This document shows positions 113 through 20,138 of a stretch of 64,000 nucleotides of DNA, in pieces (positions within the stretch are counted from its first letter, which is position 1; the number at the start of each line of letters is the position of its first letter). This DNA comes from Actinospica robiniae DSM 44927 (GTDB lineage: Bacteria; Actinomycetota; Actinomycetes; Streptomycetales; Catenulisporaceae), in NCBI RefSeq assembly GCF_000504285.1, contig NZ_KI632511.1, positions 245,372 to 309,371 on the forward strand, given 5' to 3'. The position numbers were made by a program, and so were the translations under genes. Below the pieces are notes generated by a model, which saw only the letters and a program-made list of their open reading frames with translations, did not search any database and was not told where the DNA came from.

Positions 113-329
113 TCACCCTCCCGGCAGGACCCTGATCGGGCTTCGCCTGCCCGACCGAGGAGAGAGCCCACCCCCTGGGGGAGTGGTGCGAGCTGTGCTC
201 GGGCCGAGTCCCGGCCCGTGGCCCGACCGCGCTCGGTGCGGAAGGATTCTGCATCGCCCCTGATCCGAGCATCCCGATCCTCGACCCGTGTGAAGGCGTC
301 GGTGCTCGGGTCGCCTGGCCCTGTCGCAC

Positions 330-397
330 GCCGAGGGGAATTCCTGCACCGCTTTCGGCCATGCCCCCGACGCCATCTGCCCAGCCACCCCATCCAC
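330..397 (-). pseudogene. Remnant of the 5' end of a DUF222/HNH gene
   Basis: From a GTG at 397 the minus strand reads VDGVAGQMAS, against VDGVAVEIAS at the start of the intact HNH gene at 18307. The upstream DNA also aligns: a purine-rich ribosome-binding stretch before the start, and the leader containing GTTGAAGTA at 537-545. Similarity fades after about 20 codons and the next recognisable sequence is repeat DNA, so more than 95 percent of the gene has been deleted. It shows that the left element once carried the same gene in the opposite orientation. Confidence 0.55.
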
Positions 398-662
398 CCC
401 CCCTTCCGTCACAAGTCCCGACAACCTTCGTACGCTTCCATGCTAGACGCCACCACCGACAAAAACCGCGCATCCGTCTATTGCTAGAAAAGTCAAAATA
501 CCGGAGATTTCCGGGCACTCGGACGCGTTCCCCGGAGTTGAAGTAGTAGAGAGAAAGAGCAGCTCAGAACGGCGGTGCAGGATTCTTCCGGATCGGGCGC
601 GACCGGGCCACAGGACGGGACCCGGGCCCGAGCGCAGCTCGCACCACTCCCCAGGGGGTGGG

Positions 663-811
663 CTCTCTCCTCGGTCGGGCAGGCGAAGCCCGATCAGGGT
701 TCTGCCGGGAGGTCAAGCGGCGCCATGCAGAATCAAGCACCAGCCACAGCCACCGCCGCTTGAGCTCCCGGCAGGTTCCTGATTGCCTCCGGGGACCGAC
801 CGAGGAGAGAG
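663..811. repeat. Long imperfect palindrome inside the decayed element
   Basis: Arms lie at 663-722 (starting CTCTCTCCTCGGTCGG, ending TCAAGCGGCG) and 754-811 (starting CGCCGCTTGA, ending CCGACCGAGGAGAGAG), separated by about 31 bases. Both ends of the arms pair almost perfectly; the middle pairs less well. The same structure is at 17778-17926 and 19762-19910. Confidence 0.75.
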
Positions 812-1070
812 CGCACACCCGTAACCCGACCACCCCGAACAACAGCCCGCCCCGCCAACGCCAGCACCCCACAGACCCCGGCACTCTCTCCGAGGGAGGG
901 CCTGCCAGAGGCGATTTTCGTCTTGAAACCGCAGCCCGCTCCGCCAACGCAACGTGTGGGCGGGTGGTCAGACGAACCAGGCGACGCGAAGCGGCCGCCC
1001 GAACTACGACCACCACCCCGACCCGACAAGCCACCACGCCCCAGGAGCACCCAGCCGATCATCACTCGCG

Positions 1071-10719: not shown

Positions 10720-11685
10720 ATGCGCCCCTTCCGCTTCCTCGCGACCATCGAAGAGAGTGACGACAACCGCCGCCTCGACCTTGCCGGCCTCACCGCGCAG
10801 GTCCGCAAAGCCGAGGCGGTCGGCTGTGACACCTTCGTCCTGCCCGACCATCTGCTCGACCAGCCCGCCACACTGCCGTTGCTCGCCACGGTCGCCGCCA
10901 TCACCGAGACCATGCGCGTGAGCCCGTTCGTCCTGAACATCTGCCTGCGCCACCCCGCCGTGCTCGCCCAGGAACTCGCCACCATCGACGTGCTCTCCGG
11001 CGGGCGGCTCGATATAGGCCTCGGCGCGGGATGGAACAAGCCGGAGCACGACGCCGTCGGGATCCCGTTCGAGTCGACCGGCGAGCGGATCAAGCGGCTG
11101 ACCGAGGCGATCGCCGTGATCAAGGGCTGCTTCGCCGAAGGCGCCTTCGACTACAAGGGCGAGTACTACACCATCTCCGGGCACGACGGCCTGCCCAAGC
11201 CGGCCCAGCGTCCGCACCCGCCGATCTTCCTCGGCGGCGGCGGCAAGCGCACGCTGACCCTCGCCGCACGCGAGGCTCAGATCATCGGCCTGGCGCCGCG
11301 GATCAAGCCGATCGACGGGGCGCAGCGCACCGACGCCTGGAGCCTGACCGCGGAGGCCACCGAGGAGAAGATCGGCTGGATCCGCGAAGCCGCCGGCGAC
11401 CGCTTCGACGAGATCGAACTGAACACCTATCCCAACGGCGGCCCGATAACGATCACCGGCGAGCCGCGGGCCGAGGCCGCGCGCCGGGCCGAGCGGCTGC
11501 GCAAGCGTACCGGCGTCGAACTGACGGTGGAGCAGATCCTCGACTCGCCGCACATGTTCATCGGCACACTCGACGACCTGCGGCACAAGTTCATCGAGCT
11601 GCGCGAGCGTTTCGGTATCAGCTCGTTCCTCGTCGACGATCTCGACGCCCTCGCGCCGGTCATCGAGGAACTCGCCGGGCGATGA
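10720..11685 (+). CDS. LLM-class F420-dependent oxidoreductase (TIGR03621-like)
   Basis: A luciferase-like oxidoreductase of about 321 residues in the actinobacterial TIGR03621-type group, predicted to use coenzyme F420. Visible family features are FRFLATIEES at the N-terminus, GCDTFVLPDHL, LSGGRLDIGLGAGWN in the barrel and RPHPPIFLGGGGKRTL, which shapes the cofactor pocket. The C-terminal region includes FIGTLDDLRHKFIELRERFG. Three in-frame ATGs (10708, 10711, 10720) are possible; MRPFRF at 10720 matches where the family starts. The substrate is unknown. A terminator-like hairpin follows. Confidence 0.9.
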   Translation: MRPFRFLATIEESDDNRRLDLAGLTAQVRKAEAVGCDTFVLPDHLLDQPATLPLLATVAAITETMRVSPFVLNICLRHPAVLAQELATIDVLSGGRLDIGLGAGWNKPEHDAVGIPFESTGERIKRLTEAIAVIKGCFAEGAFDYKGEYYTISGHDGLPKPAQRPHPPIFLGGGGKRTLTLAAREAQIIGLAPRIKPIDGAQRTDAWSLTAEATEEKIGWIREAAGDRFDEIELNTYPNGGPITITGEPRAEAARRAERLRKRTGVELTVEQILDSPHMFIGTLDDLRHKFIELRERFGISSFLVDDLDALAPVIEELAGR

Positions 11686-13666: not shown

Positions 13667-15112
13667 ATGACACATTTCGACGCCGCCGACGCTGCCGTCG
13701 AAGCGGCGCTGGCCGCCGGCGCCACGTACGCCGACGCCCGGGTGATGCACCGCCGGTTCGAGTCGATGGCCGCGCGCAACGGCGACGTCGAGGACCTGGC
13801 GCAGCGCGAGAACGCCGGGGTCGGGGTCCGGGCGCTGGTCGGGGGCTGCTGGGGGTTCTACGCCGTGCCCGACCTGGCCGACACCGCCGCCCGGCAGGCC
13901 GGAGTGCGCGCCGCCGAGATCGCCGCGGCCTCGGCGAGCGTGCCGAACCGCCGCGGCGCCGGCGAGGCGCTCATCCCGTCGGATCCCGAGGTCGGCTCCT
14001 GGGCCAGCGAGTGCCTGATCGACCCCTTGGCCGTGCCGCTCTCGGACAAGGGAGACCTGCTCACCTCGGCGACCGCCGAGATGCGCAAGCAGGGGGCTGA
14101 CGTCGCGGTCGGCTCCTACGACATCTGGGACACCCGCAAGTGGTTCGTCTCCTCCGAGGGCCACCGGGTGGACCAGCACGTGCGCGAGTGCGGTGTGGCC
14201 ATCAGCGCCACCGTGATCGGCGACGGGGAGACGCAGGTGCGCTCCTATCCCTCGCGCCGCGGCCAGTTCGGCACCCGCGGCTGGGAGCTCGTCGAGGAGA
14301 CGGACGTCGCCGCGCACGCCGCGCGCATCGCCGACGAGGCCCGGGCGCTGACCCGGGCGCCGCAGTGCCCGGCCGGCGAGACGACCGTGATCATCGGCGG
14401 CGAGCAGATGGCGCTGCAGATCCACGAGTCGGTCGGCCACGCGATCGAACTCGACCGCATCCTCGGTTGGGAGGCCGCCTACGCGGGCACCTCCTGGCTC
14501 GACCTGTCCCAGCTCGGCCGGCTCAAGTACGGCTCGGAGCTGATGAACATCGTCATCGACCCGACCTACCCCGGCGCGCTGGGCTCGTTCGGCTGGGACG
14601 ACGAGGGCACCAGGGCGCACAAACGCGACGCGGTGCGCAACGGCATCTGGACCGGTGTGCTGGCCGGCCGGGAGAGCGCGGCTGTCGCAGGACTCGACTA
14701 CGGCGGCAGCGTCCGGTCGGACGGCTGGTCCCGGCTGCCGATGGTGCGGATGACGAACGTAGGGCTGGAGCCCGGGCCGCACACGCTCGAGGAGATGATC
14801 GCGGCCACCGACGACGGCATCTTCCTGGACATGAACCGGTCCTGGTCGATCGACGACCGCCGGCTCAACTTCCAGTTCGGCTGCGAGATCGGCTACGAGA
14901 TCAAGAACGGCAAGCTCGGCCGGATGCTGAAGAACCCGACCTACACCGGCATCGGCCCGCGCTTCTGGTCCTCGATGGACATGCTCTCCTCGGAGATCGT
15001 CGCGTGGGGCACGCCCAACTGCGGCAAGGGCCAGCCGGGCCAGACCGGGCACACCGGCCACCCGGCCGCGCCGGCCCGGTTCACCAACGTCCGAGTGGGA
15101 GTGCGCGGATGA
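13667..15112 (+). CDS. tldD: TldD-like metalloprotease subunit
   Basis: A 481-residue TldD/PmbA-family protein that carries the zinc-binding HESVGH (the HExxxH form) near residue 253. The N-terminal domain begins FDAADAAVEAALAAGATYAD. TldD pairs with TldE to form a protease that trims modified or unfolded peptides; in streptomycetes the pair is conserved but poorly studied. ATG 13667 fits the family start. The gene overlaps the next one by 4 bp (ATGA at 15109-15112), in keeping with an obligate partner. Confidence 0.93.
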   Translation: MTHFDAADAAVEAALAAGATYADARVMHRRFESMAARNGDVEDLAQRENAGVGVRALVGGCWGFYAVPDLADTAARQAGVRAAEIAAASASVPNRRGAGEALIPSDPEVGSWASECLIDPLAVPLSDKGDLLTSATAEMRKQGADVAVGSYDIWDTRKWFVSSEGHRVDQHVRECGVAISATVIGDGETQVRSYPSRRGQFGTRGWELVEETDVAAHAARIADEARALTRAPQCPAGETTVIIGGEQMALQIHESVGHAIELDRILGWEAAYAGTSWLDLSQLGRLKYGSELMNIVIDPTYPGALGSFGWDDEGTRAHKRDAVRNGIWTGVLAGRESAAVAGLDYGGSVRSDGWSRLPMVRMTNVGLEPGPHTLEEMIAATDDGIFLDMNRSWSIDDRRLNFQFGCEIGYEIKNGKLGRMLKNPTYTGIGPRFWSSMDMLSSEIVAWGTPNCGKGQPGQTGHTGHPAAPARFTNVRVGVRG

Positions 15113-17549: not shown

Positions 17550-18115
17550 CGGATTGATGATCGGCTGGGTGATCGTCTTGGTGTGGGCGGGTGCTTCGCG
17601 TCGCCCTCGGTTTCGTTTGTCCGCCCCGCCCACTCGTTGCGTGGGCGGGGTGGGCTGGGGTTTCAAGCTTTTGCCTCCGGCGCGGGCCCTTCCCTCGGAG
17701 AGAGATGCCGGGTTCGTGTGGGTGCTGTTGTTGGCGGGGCGGGCTGGGGTTCGGGGTGGTGGGGTGTCGGGTGTGTGCTCTCTCCTCGGTCGGTCCCCGG
17801 AGGCAATCAGGGACCTGTCGGGAGCTCAAGCGGCGGTGGTTTCCGTTGATGGTGGATTGTGCATGGCGCCGCTTGACCTCCCGGCAGAACCCTGATCGGG
17901 CTTCGCCTGCCCGACCGAGGAGAGAGCCCACCCCCTGGGGAGTGGTGTGCGCTGCGCTCGGGCCCGGGTCCCGTCCGGTGGCCCGGTCGCGTTCGGTGCG
18001 GAAGAATCCTGCATCGCTCTGACCCGACCGACGCTCCTCTTCGGCTTCCTGGTTCGCTCAGCCTTGTGGAGTGGTGTCCGGTGGTTCGGCTGTGCTCGAT
18101 ACAGGATGTTGCATC
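17550..18115 (+). repeat. Left inverted repeat of the HNH element
   Basis: It matches 19581-20138 in reverse complement over its whole length with scattered mismatches and small indels, and most of 455-1069 as well. Conserved parts are the 18-bp tip, GGGCCCTTCCCTCGGAGAGA near 17686, the palindrome at 17778-17926, CGGAAGAATCCTGCATCGC near 18000-18018 and CGATACAGGATGTTGCATCGC at 18097-18117. Confidence 0.75.
17778..17926. repeat. Long imperfect palindrome in the left inverted repeat
   Basis: Arms 17778-17835 and 17867-17926 with a 31-base loop. The outer 16 bases of each arm (CTCTCTCCTCGGTCGG / CCGACCGAGGAGAGAG) and inner bases (TCAAGCGGCG / CGCCGCTTGA) pair; the centre is less conserved. Confidence 0.75.
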
Positions 18116-18132
18116 GCGTAGATTCCTGTATC
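18098..18132 (+). repeat. Hairpin in the leader of the HNH gene
   Basis: GATACAGGA (18098-18106) and TCCTGTATC (18124-18132) form a perfect 9-bp stem around a 17-base loop, about 175 bp before the HNH start codon. The left arm belongs to the inverted repeat; the right arm lies in the gene's own leader. It could be an operator or a leader RNA structure. Confidence 0.55.
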
Positions 18133-18306
18133 GCCGGTTGCGGTACCGTTCCCATCTCTTACTTCAACGCCCGGGGACGTCCGCGGGTTCCCGGGAACAT
18201 CCCTGATTCTTTCTGCCCTACAAGGGTCGTATACACGCCTTTTGTCAGTGGCGGGCTCTAGAATAGAAGTGTTCGGGGATGTCGGGGCCGGTGAGGGGAG
18301 GGTGTC

Positions 18307-19581
18307 GTGGACGGGGTGGCAGTGGAGATCGCGTCGATGTCCCGCGTGGTGCGGGAGGTGCTCGAGCGTGCGCGGGCGGGTGGGGATGATGTGGGGCGGG
18401 TTGACGCGGTGCGTGAGGCGATCGTGGAGGTGGGCCGGGCGGCGCAGGCGCTGCACGGGATGCTGCTGACGCTGGTCGGTGAGGGCGACCGGCTCGGTAT
18501 CGCGCGTGGGGGTGTGGGTCCGTGGCTGGCGACGGTGCTGGATGTGACCGAGGGCCGGGCCCGCGCGCTCGCGCACGACGCCCGGCTGCTGGCCCGGCTG
18601 CCGGGAGTGGAGGCGGAACTGTGCTCGGGTGTGATCGGGCCTGATTCCGCGCGGGCGCTGGCGCGCACGGTCAAAGCGGTGCGGGCGACGGGCCTGGACC
18701 CCGCGGAGGAGGCCGCCAAGACACTCGAGGTGACCCGGGAGCGCGGTGCGCGCGCCGGGTTGGAACGGGTACGGGTGCTCGAGGAGCAGGTCGCGCCGGG
18801 CTCGATCGAGGCGCGTCACGCACGGGAGCGCGAGCGTTCCTTCGCCCGGATCAGCACGTGCGGGGAGGGTCAGATGCACCGGTGTGAGATCCTGCTCGAC
18901 CCGGTGCGCGGCGCCGTTTTCCAGGCCGCGATCGATCTGCAGGTCGCCGAGATGATCCGGACCCGGCAGTTCGACGGCGGCGAGATCGTACCGGGGGATG
19001 TGCGCAGCACCGAGCAGATGAACGCGGAAGCGGTCACCCGGCTCGCACAAGTCTTCCTCGATGCCCCGCCCGAGCAGCGCCACGCCCACTTCTCCCTGCC
19101 CGCGCTCGCCGTCACCATTCAAGACCCGACCGCACCCGCGGCGGCCGTGAAGAATCCTGCCGGACACGCGGCGGCCGTGAAGGACCCTTCCGCGCATGTG
19201 GCGGGCATGAAGGATCCTGCCGTGCACGCCGACATTCCGGCCGGCTGTGCGCGCACGGTATTCGGGGCGCTGGTCCCGGCGGGGCGGCTGCCGAGGCGGA
19301 GTGATCCGAGGCGTCATGAGCTGGTGACCGATGGGTGTACGGGTACCTTCGACGGGATCGCGCTGGATCGTGACCCGCGGGCGCGTCTGGCCTCGCCCGG
19401 GCAGCGCGGGTTTCTCGCGTGGCGCGACCGGTACTGCACCTATCCCGGGTGCGATCGCCCGATGACGTTCGCCCTGCACGCCCACCACATCGTCCCGTTC
19501 GCGCAGGGCGGAGAGACGAGAGTGGGAAACCTCCGGCTGTACTGCGCGAAGCATCACACCACCGTCCACCAGGAGCGGTGA
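18307..19581 (+). CDS. DUF222 / HNH endonuclease (13E12 repeat family)
   Basis: A 424-residue protein starting at GTG 18307 behind GGGGAGGG. The N-terminal 290 residues form the helical DUF222 domain (VGRAAQALHGMLLTLVGEGD, LDVTEGRARALAHDARLLAR). The C-terminal HNH nuclease motif is YPGCDRPMTFALHAHHIVPF with LRLYCAKHHTTVHQE, giving the HH...N...H metal and catalytic residues. DUF222/HNH proteins are abundant in actinobacteria; nicking or cutting DNA is presumed, their purpose unknown. Residues about 275-310 hold 11-residue repeats (AAAVKDPSAHV-like) encoded by DNA resembling the element's own GAAGAATCCTGC motif. The gene fills the space between the inverted repeats. Confidence 0.9.
   Translation: MDGVAVEIASMSRVVREVLERARAGGDDVGRVDAVREAIVEVGRAAQALHGMLLTLVGEGDRLGIARGGVGPWLATVLDVTEGRARALAHDARLLARLPGVEAELCSGVIGPDSARALARTVKAVRATGLDPAEEAAKTLEVTRERGARAGLERVRVLEEQVAPGSIEARHARERERSFARISTCGEGQMHRCEILLDPVRGAVFQAAIDLQVAEMIRTRQFDGGEIVPGDVRSTEQMNAEAVTRLAQVFLDAPPEQRHAHFSLPALAVTIQDPTAPAAAVKNPAGHAAAVKDPSAHVAGMKDPAVHADIPAGCARTVFGALVPAGRLPRRSDPRRHELVTDGCTGTFDGIALDRDPRARLASPGQRGFLAWRDRYCTYPGCDRPMTFALHAHHIVPFAQGGETRVGNLRLYCAKHHTTVHQER
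19126..19229 (+). repeat. Tandem 33-bp repeats inside the HNH gene
   Basis: Three to four degenerate 33-bp units, each with a GTGAAGGAYCCTKCC-like core (near 19147, 19180 and 19207), encode repeated xAAVKDPAxHx in the linker between the DUF222 and HNH domains. The core resembles the GCGGAAGAATCCTGC motif of the flanking inverted repeats. Confidence 0.55.
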
Positions 19582-20138
19582 TGCATGATCCTGTATCGGC
19601 CGCCGGGCCGCCGGACACTGCTCCGCACGGCTCCCGGACCACGCAGTCGAAGAGAAGCGGCCGCATACGAGCGGTGCAGGATTCTTCCGGATCGAGCGCG
19701 ACCGGGCCACGGGATGGGACCCGGGCCCGAGCGCAGCTCGCACCACTCCCCAGGGGGTGGGCTCTCTCCTCGGTCGGGCAGGCGAAGCCCGATCAGGGTT
19801 CTGCCGGGAGGTCAAGCGGCGCCATACACAATCCACCACCAGCGCAGGCCGCCGCCGCTTGACCTCCCGGCAGGTCCCTGATTGCCTCCGGGGACCGACC
19901 GAGGAGAGAGCACACCCCCGCAACCCCACCACCCCGAACAACAGCCCGCCCCGCCACGCCAGCACCCCACAAACCCCGGCATCTCTCTCCGAGGGAAGGG
20001 CCTGCCAGCGGCGATTTTCGTCTTGAAGCCGCAGGCCGCCCCACCCACGCAACGGGTGGGCTGGGTGGGCAAACGAAACCGTGGGCGAAGCGAAGCACCC
20101 GCCCCCACCCGACGAGCACTCAGCCGATCATCAATCCG
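19581..20138 (-). repeat. Right inverted repeat of the HNH element
   Basis: Reverse-complement partner of 17550-18115. It begins at the HNH stop codon with GCATGATCCTGTATCG, carries GTGCAGGATTCTTCCG at 19674-19689 and the palindrome at 19762-19910, and ends with the tip at 20121-20138. It is more similar to 564-1069 than to the left repeat over the stretch around 19700-19820. Confidence 0.75.
19762..19910. repeat. Long imperfect palindrome in the right inverted repeat
   Basis: Arms 19762-19821 and 19853-19910 with a 31-base loop, the same design as at 663-811 and 17778-17926. Loop length is 31 bases in all three copies although loop sequences differ. Confidence 0.75.

Follow-up and report, generated by a model that had tools for sequence, protein, structure and literature searches.

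Why would a mobile element keep a 149-nt palindrome in each of its two ends? This question is raised by a stretch of the Actinospica robiniae DSM 44927 genome that spans bases 245372-309371 of a 9.92-Mb record; the whole of this 64-kb stretch is referred to here as the window. The features identified are compiled in Table 1. The palindrome coordinates and the arm sequences provided by an initial annotation of the window proved to be exact. All three repeat copies that it reported are present, but two of them, at 17778-17926 and 19762-19910, are not independent because they form part of the two ends of a single element, for which repeat analysis and the alignment of copies gave a size of approximately 2.6 kb. 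The third copy belongs to a gene-less element; it is situated in the right end of this element, and the left end is broken within a palindrome at position 117.

Table 1. Palindrome-bearing elements of the window and their parts (position 1 is the first base of the window)
Feature	Position	Strand	Basis and remarks
Whole element, long terminal inverted repeats flanking the HNH gene	17552..20136	+	Alignment of copies; end consensus CTA-NN-GCGAW-TTGATGATCGGCTGAGTG; ends ± ~10 bp
Left terminal inverted repeat	17552..18039	+	Repeat search and alignment of copies
Left-hand palindrome, directed towards the gene in standard orientation (GGTCCCCGGAGG side first)	17778..17926 (loop 17836-17866)	+	Sequence, folding, covariation
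HNH endonuclease gene, DUF222 (13E12) family, 424 aa	18307..19581	+	PF01844, 29.8 bits; 93% identical copy above PF02720 cut-off
Right terminal inverted repeat	19649..20136	-	Repeat search and alignment of copies
Right-hand palindrome; the minus strand has the standard orientation	19762..19910	-	Sequence, copy collection
Gene-less (MITE-like) remnant of the same family; left end truncated within the palindrome, right end approximate	117..1070	-	Repeat search, copy alignment
Palindrome of the remnant; the minus strand has the standard orientation	663..811	-	Sequence, DNA folding
Right half-palindrome and flank, 98% identical to 17877-17940	117..180	+	Repeat search

The 149-nt unit is composed of arms of 58 and 60 nt that surround a loop of 31 nt. 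The arms are imperfect, with 16 outer pairs followed by an unequal internal loop (12 nt versus 14 nt, part of which can pair) and then by stretches of 7, 10, and 10 pairs. Both strands of the palindrome fold into an imperfect intrastrand hairpin, and the three DNA folds computed for the window had z values of -7.5 to -8.6, with 0 of 200 shuffles being as good. The arm length had initially been put near 60 bp. Arms of 58 and 60 nt were found in all 84 copies collected, which comprise 83 distinct sequences and include a few members of family B. These 84 are part of the 169 cores described below; the collecting pattern tolerated no changes other than substitutions in the core and the 16 outermost bases, and copies with insertions or deletions at these places would have been missed. 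The loop had been regarded as constant at 31 bases. It measures 31 nt in 70 of the 84 copies, 32 nt in 7, 30 nt in 4, 29 nt in 1, and 28 nt in 2, and its length is therefore nearly but not strictly constant. The likeness of the loops in both ends of one element could be compared for three usable pairs only.

The palindrome is highly repeated. Its inner cores, TCAAGCGGCG-N18-48-CGCCGCTTGA, have 169 exact matches in the whole genome, and a control pattern had none. Among the cores listed (up to 2.99 Mb), most occur in inverted pairs, spaced by 0.6-0.9 kb in short elements and by approximately 2 kb or more where an HNH gene or an insertion is present, and the pairs lie mostly within MITE-like elements of approximately 1.4 kb. 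Twenty short elements could be aligned to a 1459-base consensus, which includes some flank, keeps both ends, and retains a piece approximately 71% identical to 18120-18336, a segment that precedes the HNH gene. MITEs are short gene-less derivatives that have the ends of a gene-bearing element and a high copy number. The short elements are likewise gene-less, share their ends with the gene-bearing element, occur in many copies (20 aligned; 169 cores), and have TA in their end consensus; unlike MITEs, their ends are long (~450 bp) and carry a hairpin. REP/BIME sequences with their RAYT proteins (REPtrons) are dispersed palindromes of 20-40 nt in inverted pairs, few of which are accompanied by a nuclease gene, and the enzyme is of the HUH type. 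Many dispersed palindromes, inverted pairs, and few copies with a nuclease gene are also seen here, whereas the palindrome measures 149 nt, resides inside defined terminal repeats, and is associated with an HNH instead of an HUH enzyme.

The 93 ends collected, some of which are spurious, share CTA-NN-GCGA(A/T)-TTGATGATCGGCTGAGTG, and little is conserved further outwards. The triplet was found with C in 65, T in 74, and A in 65 of these 93 ends. Since both ends tend to read CTA inwards, the consensus suggests a CTAG target in which TA would be doubled. A Pfam scan of the HNH protein in the window placed PF01844 above its cut-off and did not report PF02720, which exceeded its cut-off in the 93% identical copy and in five paralogues. 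Five HNH frames, including that of the window, are free of stops and 88-100% identical over at least 410 residues, and others are broken or interrupted. A GAT(A/G)CAGGAT motif, which resembles the palindrome loop and is a possible protein site, has three matches in the element interior in the window (18004-18016, 18098-18107, and 19588-19597). Six insertions that appear transposase-like by eye are located inside palindromes (L051, L059, L067, two in L082, and L084), four lie at or within approximately 12 bp of a palindrome edge (L056, L061, L073, and L081), at least four are found elsewhere in elements (L065, L067, L071, and L083), and L060 is truncated at the palindrome centre. Judging from these raw counts, insertion sequences may use the palindrome as a place to land.

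Diverged palindromes flank diverged DUF222-HNH genes both in the same genome, where protein identity is 37-41%, and in A. acidithermotolerans. An HNH alignment used as query retrieved three loci, all in A. acidithermotolerans, and the single HNH protein as query found no named relatives. Among six Actinospica lineages, both palindromes are present in A, L084 (one interrupted), B, C, and D, and only halves in E. For a covariation analysis, 15 sequences from five families were aligned, namely A, B, and D from this genome and C and G from two other Actinospica genomes. In this alignment, 95.9% of the 612 cells pair. Double compensatory changes were detected at 18 of the 44 stem pairs, amounting to 56 cells as compared to 16.9 ± 2.8 in 500 shuffles; rows within one family are related, and the number of independent events is thus lower than 56. 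When the partner was slid by 1-3 columns as a control, 0-4 double-change cells were left. Further pair types, one of five measures, were not above the shuffles (92 of 500 were as high). The paired substitutions across genomic copies and the near-constant loop length support the initial idea of selection on a hairpin, and the HNH elements of Actinospica contain a DNA hairpin that is conserved in structure.

Complementarity might also be maintained without a function, if the hairpin were a passenger of MITE-like repeats whose arms are corrected by template switching (quasipalindrome correction) or gene conversion. Most copies, among those listed, do reside in gene-less repeats, and double changes that occur nearly without single-change intermediates fit a DNA-level copying between the arms. 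Such correction would erase the unequal internal loop as well, yet this loop is present in the lineages compared, with varying sequence. Furthermore, when the terminal repeat was compared at the DNA level with the two other Actinospica genomes, eight matches were obtained, seven of them on the palindrome and one, which is short, elsewhere. A passenger role is considered quite improbable.

A structural RNA had been another initial suggestion. If a structured RNA were encoded on one strand, the better folding, as RNA, of the standard strand compared with its complement in 11 of 11 non-fragment stretches (with C_L127 reversed, and E_L136 L and R as well as L131 omitted) would be expected, although loops and flanks contribute to this difference. 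The base pairs argue against it. G-U pairs are few in the five-family alignment, with 14 G-U and 12 A-C cells among 612, and the excess of G-U on the standard strand that was sought as a sign of RNA was not found. In family A, 55 distinct arm pairs contain, outside the internal loop, 24 G-T as opposed to 78 A-C cells, 54 of the latter stemming from three positions; this is the opposite of what is predicted for an RNA from the standard strand and is compatible with an RNA from the other strand. No Rfam family reached its threshold in the window. A structured RNA appears very improbable, and the scarcity of G-U pairs favors a structure that forms in DNA over one that forms in an RNA of the standard strand.

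Similar hairpins exist outside Actinospica. A covariance model matched 9 of 394 genomes of the class, including that of the window, and this is a lower bound since strict filters were used and few candidates were scored per genome. Two loci were rejected by eye: L144 is a low-complexity match, and L142, located where a contig ends, is a long and perfect hairpin in which the motif is absent. In the remaining six genomes, the hairpin contains an internal loop with unequal sides and a related sequence, as a rule GGTCACCGGAGGC opposite GGGCTGCGCCTGCC; this loop recurs, with variation, in the Actinospica and Streptomyces groups. Like hairpins were found on plasmids of Streptomyces, Kitasatospora, and Micromonospora, and BLAST searches with two Streptomyces copies retrieved 18 and 32 plasmid records, four of the 32 being short Bradyrhizobium matches. 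The window palindrome itself matched a single Streptomyces plasmid, NZ_CP107822, which was also present in the set of 32. As this match covers only 31 bases, the link between Actinospica and the plasmids is based on structure and motif, from which we infer common descent of the two. In a set of 15 Streptomyces sequences, 8 of which come from one plasmid, 14 of 28 main-stem pairs were doubly changed, as counted without a shuffle control, and one-sided changes amounted to 0 in the main stem. The Streptomyces consensus loop differs from that of Actinospica in being branched into two small hairpins. Three viral contigs were matched by a pattern scan, without a model match at E <= 0.001, and a BLAST search for phages gave no match. 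Known hairpins could not be told from background by an ungapped hairpin score, which was dropped. No description of the hairpin was found in the literature covered, which consisted of open-licence papers.

Within Actinospica, the hairpin is united with HNH elements. One initial suggestion was that the palindrome may be a cruciform substrate of the HNH nuclease; the DUF222-HNH protein would recognize it for transposition or cleavage. Inverted pairs indeed flank the HNH gene in the six lineages, with the interruption in L084 and the half-palindromes in E noted above. Hairpin and gene also occur apart, and for this reason such a substrate is disfavored as a general role and quite unlikely overall. 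Of 148 class genomes, 110 have DUF222, which was found in 0 of 10 same-order genomes among those listed; 18 further genomes without a match are outside this list. At 30 DUF222 loci, sampled from as many genomes of other genera, no hairpin was detected at E <= 0.01 (best value 0.25), with the restriction that the covariance model may miss diverged hairpins. No relatives of the window HNH protein were found at 1e-15 on the collected plasmids, though some of these carry the hairpin, and one Actinospica genome (G002) has hairpins and no match to the protein at 1e-20. The separation is not a clean one, since two further genomes (G051 and G100) possess DUF222 genes and one hairpin each, not adjacent within the 3 kb examined. 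At L084 (G000:C1:8245700-8253000), ends that are 88-89% identical to those of the window element surround an HNH protein of only 41% identity, which also speaks against a substrate role; an exchange of genes or of ends between lineages may have taken place there. The REP13E12/13E12 repeats, as described in PMC13061034 and PMC10589994, likewise contain an HNH gene of the same family (PF02720, PF01844) and are repeated in the genome. In the element studied here, the gene is enclosed by long inverted repeats, both of which carry a palindrome; at the 30 DUF222 loci of other genera, the palindrome was not detected.

The plasmid hairpins are largely consistent in place and direction. At 18 loci, hand-picked from the matches and 17 of them annotated, the next gene was found in the standard direction in 13 of the 17, starting approximately 0.1-0.55 kb downstream of the hairpin; the direction was opposite at L183, L184, L193, and L194. 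Plasmid NZ_CP108590 has nine copies according to the model, and eight are directed as the next gene, the exception being that at 14708. All nine are confined to a single arc of the circular plasmid (75.6-83.5 kb and 0.8-14.9 kb), and a conjugal transfer protein annotated at 33.4-34.6 kb lies outside it. On NZ_CP107959, the copy at 10794 is directed opposite to the next gene and sits between convergent genes. A rolling-circle single-strand origin, considered for L183 and L184, was rejected, as an annotated Rep is present in L183 only and the large gene of pSGL1 is FtsK-like.

A further comparison concerned nine plasmids on which a relaxase, a mobilization protein, or MobC is annotated. Twelve of their 14 hairpins are on the relaxase strand: two of three on NZ_CP107959, the single copies on NZ_CP043961 (model E-value 0.016), NZ_CP117711, CP109186, and NC_015409, both copies on LN997845, NZ_CP107912, and NZ_CP047145 (one copy by BLAST only on each of the last two), and none of one on Kitasatospora NZ_CP108027, where the strand is opposite to that of MobC and the model was run on locus L193 only. 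For CP109186, NC_015409, NZ_CP107912, NZ_CP047145, and NZ_CP117711, 50 kb of each was covered; CP109186, of which these are 50 of 68 kb, has a second BLAST match beyond the located copy. A 40-base model match on LN997845 (L198 48313-48352, E 0.036) was dropped. An oriT is usually located just upstream of the relaxase operon. With oriT assumed at this place, 11 of the 12 relaxase-strand hairpins, at 2-17 kb beyond the relaxase gene, would be on the leading side, and that of NC_015409 (pVMKU) would lie approximately 46 kb from oriT. The genes downstream of the relaxase-strand hairpins point towards the oriT so placed. No model match at E <= 0.01 was found among the transfer genes of the plasmid stretches examined. 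A small gene annotated as HNH endonuclease is located near the mobF relaxase gene of NZ_CP043961 (31242-31802) and NZ_CP117711 (28643-29155).

As to the genes next to the hairpins, 24 distinct proteins were scanned, one of which (L175 15177-15314) is on the far side. Six are DNA methyltransferases (five C5 and one N6-like), a raw count to be read without a plasmid background rate, and the five C5 enzymes may represent one lineage. An ArdC domain, DUF3560, DUF6884, and a helix-turn-helix were found once each, matches to ParB-like, SprT-like, and antitoxin-like families remained below the curated cut-offs, and 11 of the 24 neighbours had no match in the Pfam scan. Leading regions with anti-restriction and methyltransferase genes and with Frpo hairpins upstream are described in PMC11541004, the main text of which contains no words beginning with "actino" or "ardc". 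Frpo/ssi hairpins resemble those studied here in being long imperfect DNA hairpins upstream of genes that include methyltransferase and anti-restriction genes, and in occurring several times per plasmid in places; with oriT as assumed above, the plasmid hairpins studied here would also share the position before leading-region genes and a direction that fits transcription from the transferred strand. The hairpins described here differ in being GC-rich, in lacking a clear -35/-10 pair, and in their presence in the ends of chromosomal HNH elements; the comparison covers structure and position. Inspection by eye for a clear -35/-10 pair in the hairpin found none; only some of the lineages have a TTG 17-18 nt before a TA, and the final T of the -10 is missing.

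Our preferred explanation, which is tentative and plausible rather than probable, is that the palindrome is a DNA hairpin of the ssi/Frpo-like kind that acts in single-stranded DNA and was captured by HNH elements. When a strand enters a cell, the hairpin would fold back and the host would start RNA or complementary-strand synthesis at this place, and the genes just downstream would thereby be expressed or made duplex at once. The Actinospica hairpin would be a member of a family present on actinobacterial plasmids, of which DUF222-HNH elements would have taken up one copy per terminal inverted repeat, facing the HNH gene; its numerous chromosomal copies would then stem from short derivatives, and many of these copies may be passengers. 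We infer the single-strand activity, the oriT positions, and the benefit to the HNH element. Points in favor are the covariation, the recurring internal loop, the gene direction, the relaxase strand, the absence of model matches among the transfer genes examined, and the methyltransferase and ArdC neighbours, which recall the genes behind Frpo hairpins in PMC11541004. On the other side are the lack of a clear -35/-10 pair, the reversed copies (L183, L184, L193, L194, NZ_CP108590 14708, and NZ_CP107959 10794), the strand on NZ_CP108027, the distance on pVMKU, the short BLAST match, the methyltransferase count without background rate, the neighbours without Pfam match, and the possibly single C5 lineage.

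The main rival to an action in single-stranded DNA is a terminator or insulator, in which a strong bidirectional hairpin blocks read-through into the next gene ahead of an ordinary double-stranded promoter. Several features of the plasmid copies fit this explanation: they lie between genes, at the above distance before a start where the direction matches, one copy is placed between convergent genes, and a promoter-like TGGAC(T/C)-N17-CANNAT follows eight of the nine NZ_CP108590 hairpins (L175 and L176). Yet no T-run was seen by eye, some of the internal loop sequence is found again in different groups, a recurrence that would be superfluous for a terminator, no model matches at E <= 0.01 were found among the transfer genes examined, and G-U pairs are few although termination acts in RNA. 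A terminator, or a transcription barrier as suggested initially, is held to be possible but rather unlikely.

A more far-reaching version of the single-strand explanation, possible but rather unlikely, is that there is an actinobacterial class of single-stranded DNA start hairpins from which anti-restriction genes are expressed immediately when plasmid strands come in, and that a DUF222-HNH element captured one such hairpin in each end and spread it via MITEs. The HNH element would then also be switched on upon entry, and MITE derivatives would have spread at least 169 cores through one chromosome. If true, early expression from the transferred single strand, known in F-like plasmids, would have a second, actinobacterial design, and since this design would be recognizable by sequence, it may help to find unknown anti-defence genes on Streptomyces plasmids. 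The presence of a 149-nt palindrome in each end of a mobile HNH element would be explained as well, and a testable function would be provided for a repeat at which draft assemblies break. Window position 1 directly follows a run of N in the record, as seen in the 100 bases upstream (L133), which places an assembly gap beside the half-palindrome, and several draft contigs of two other Actinospica genomes also terminate at palindromes.
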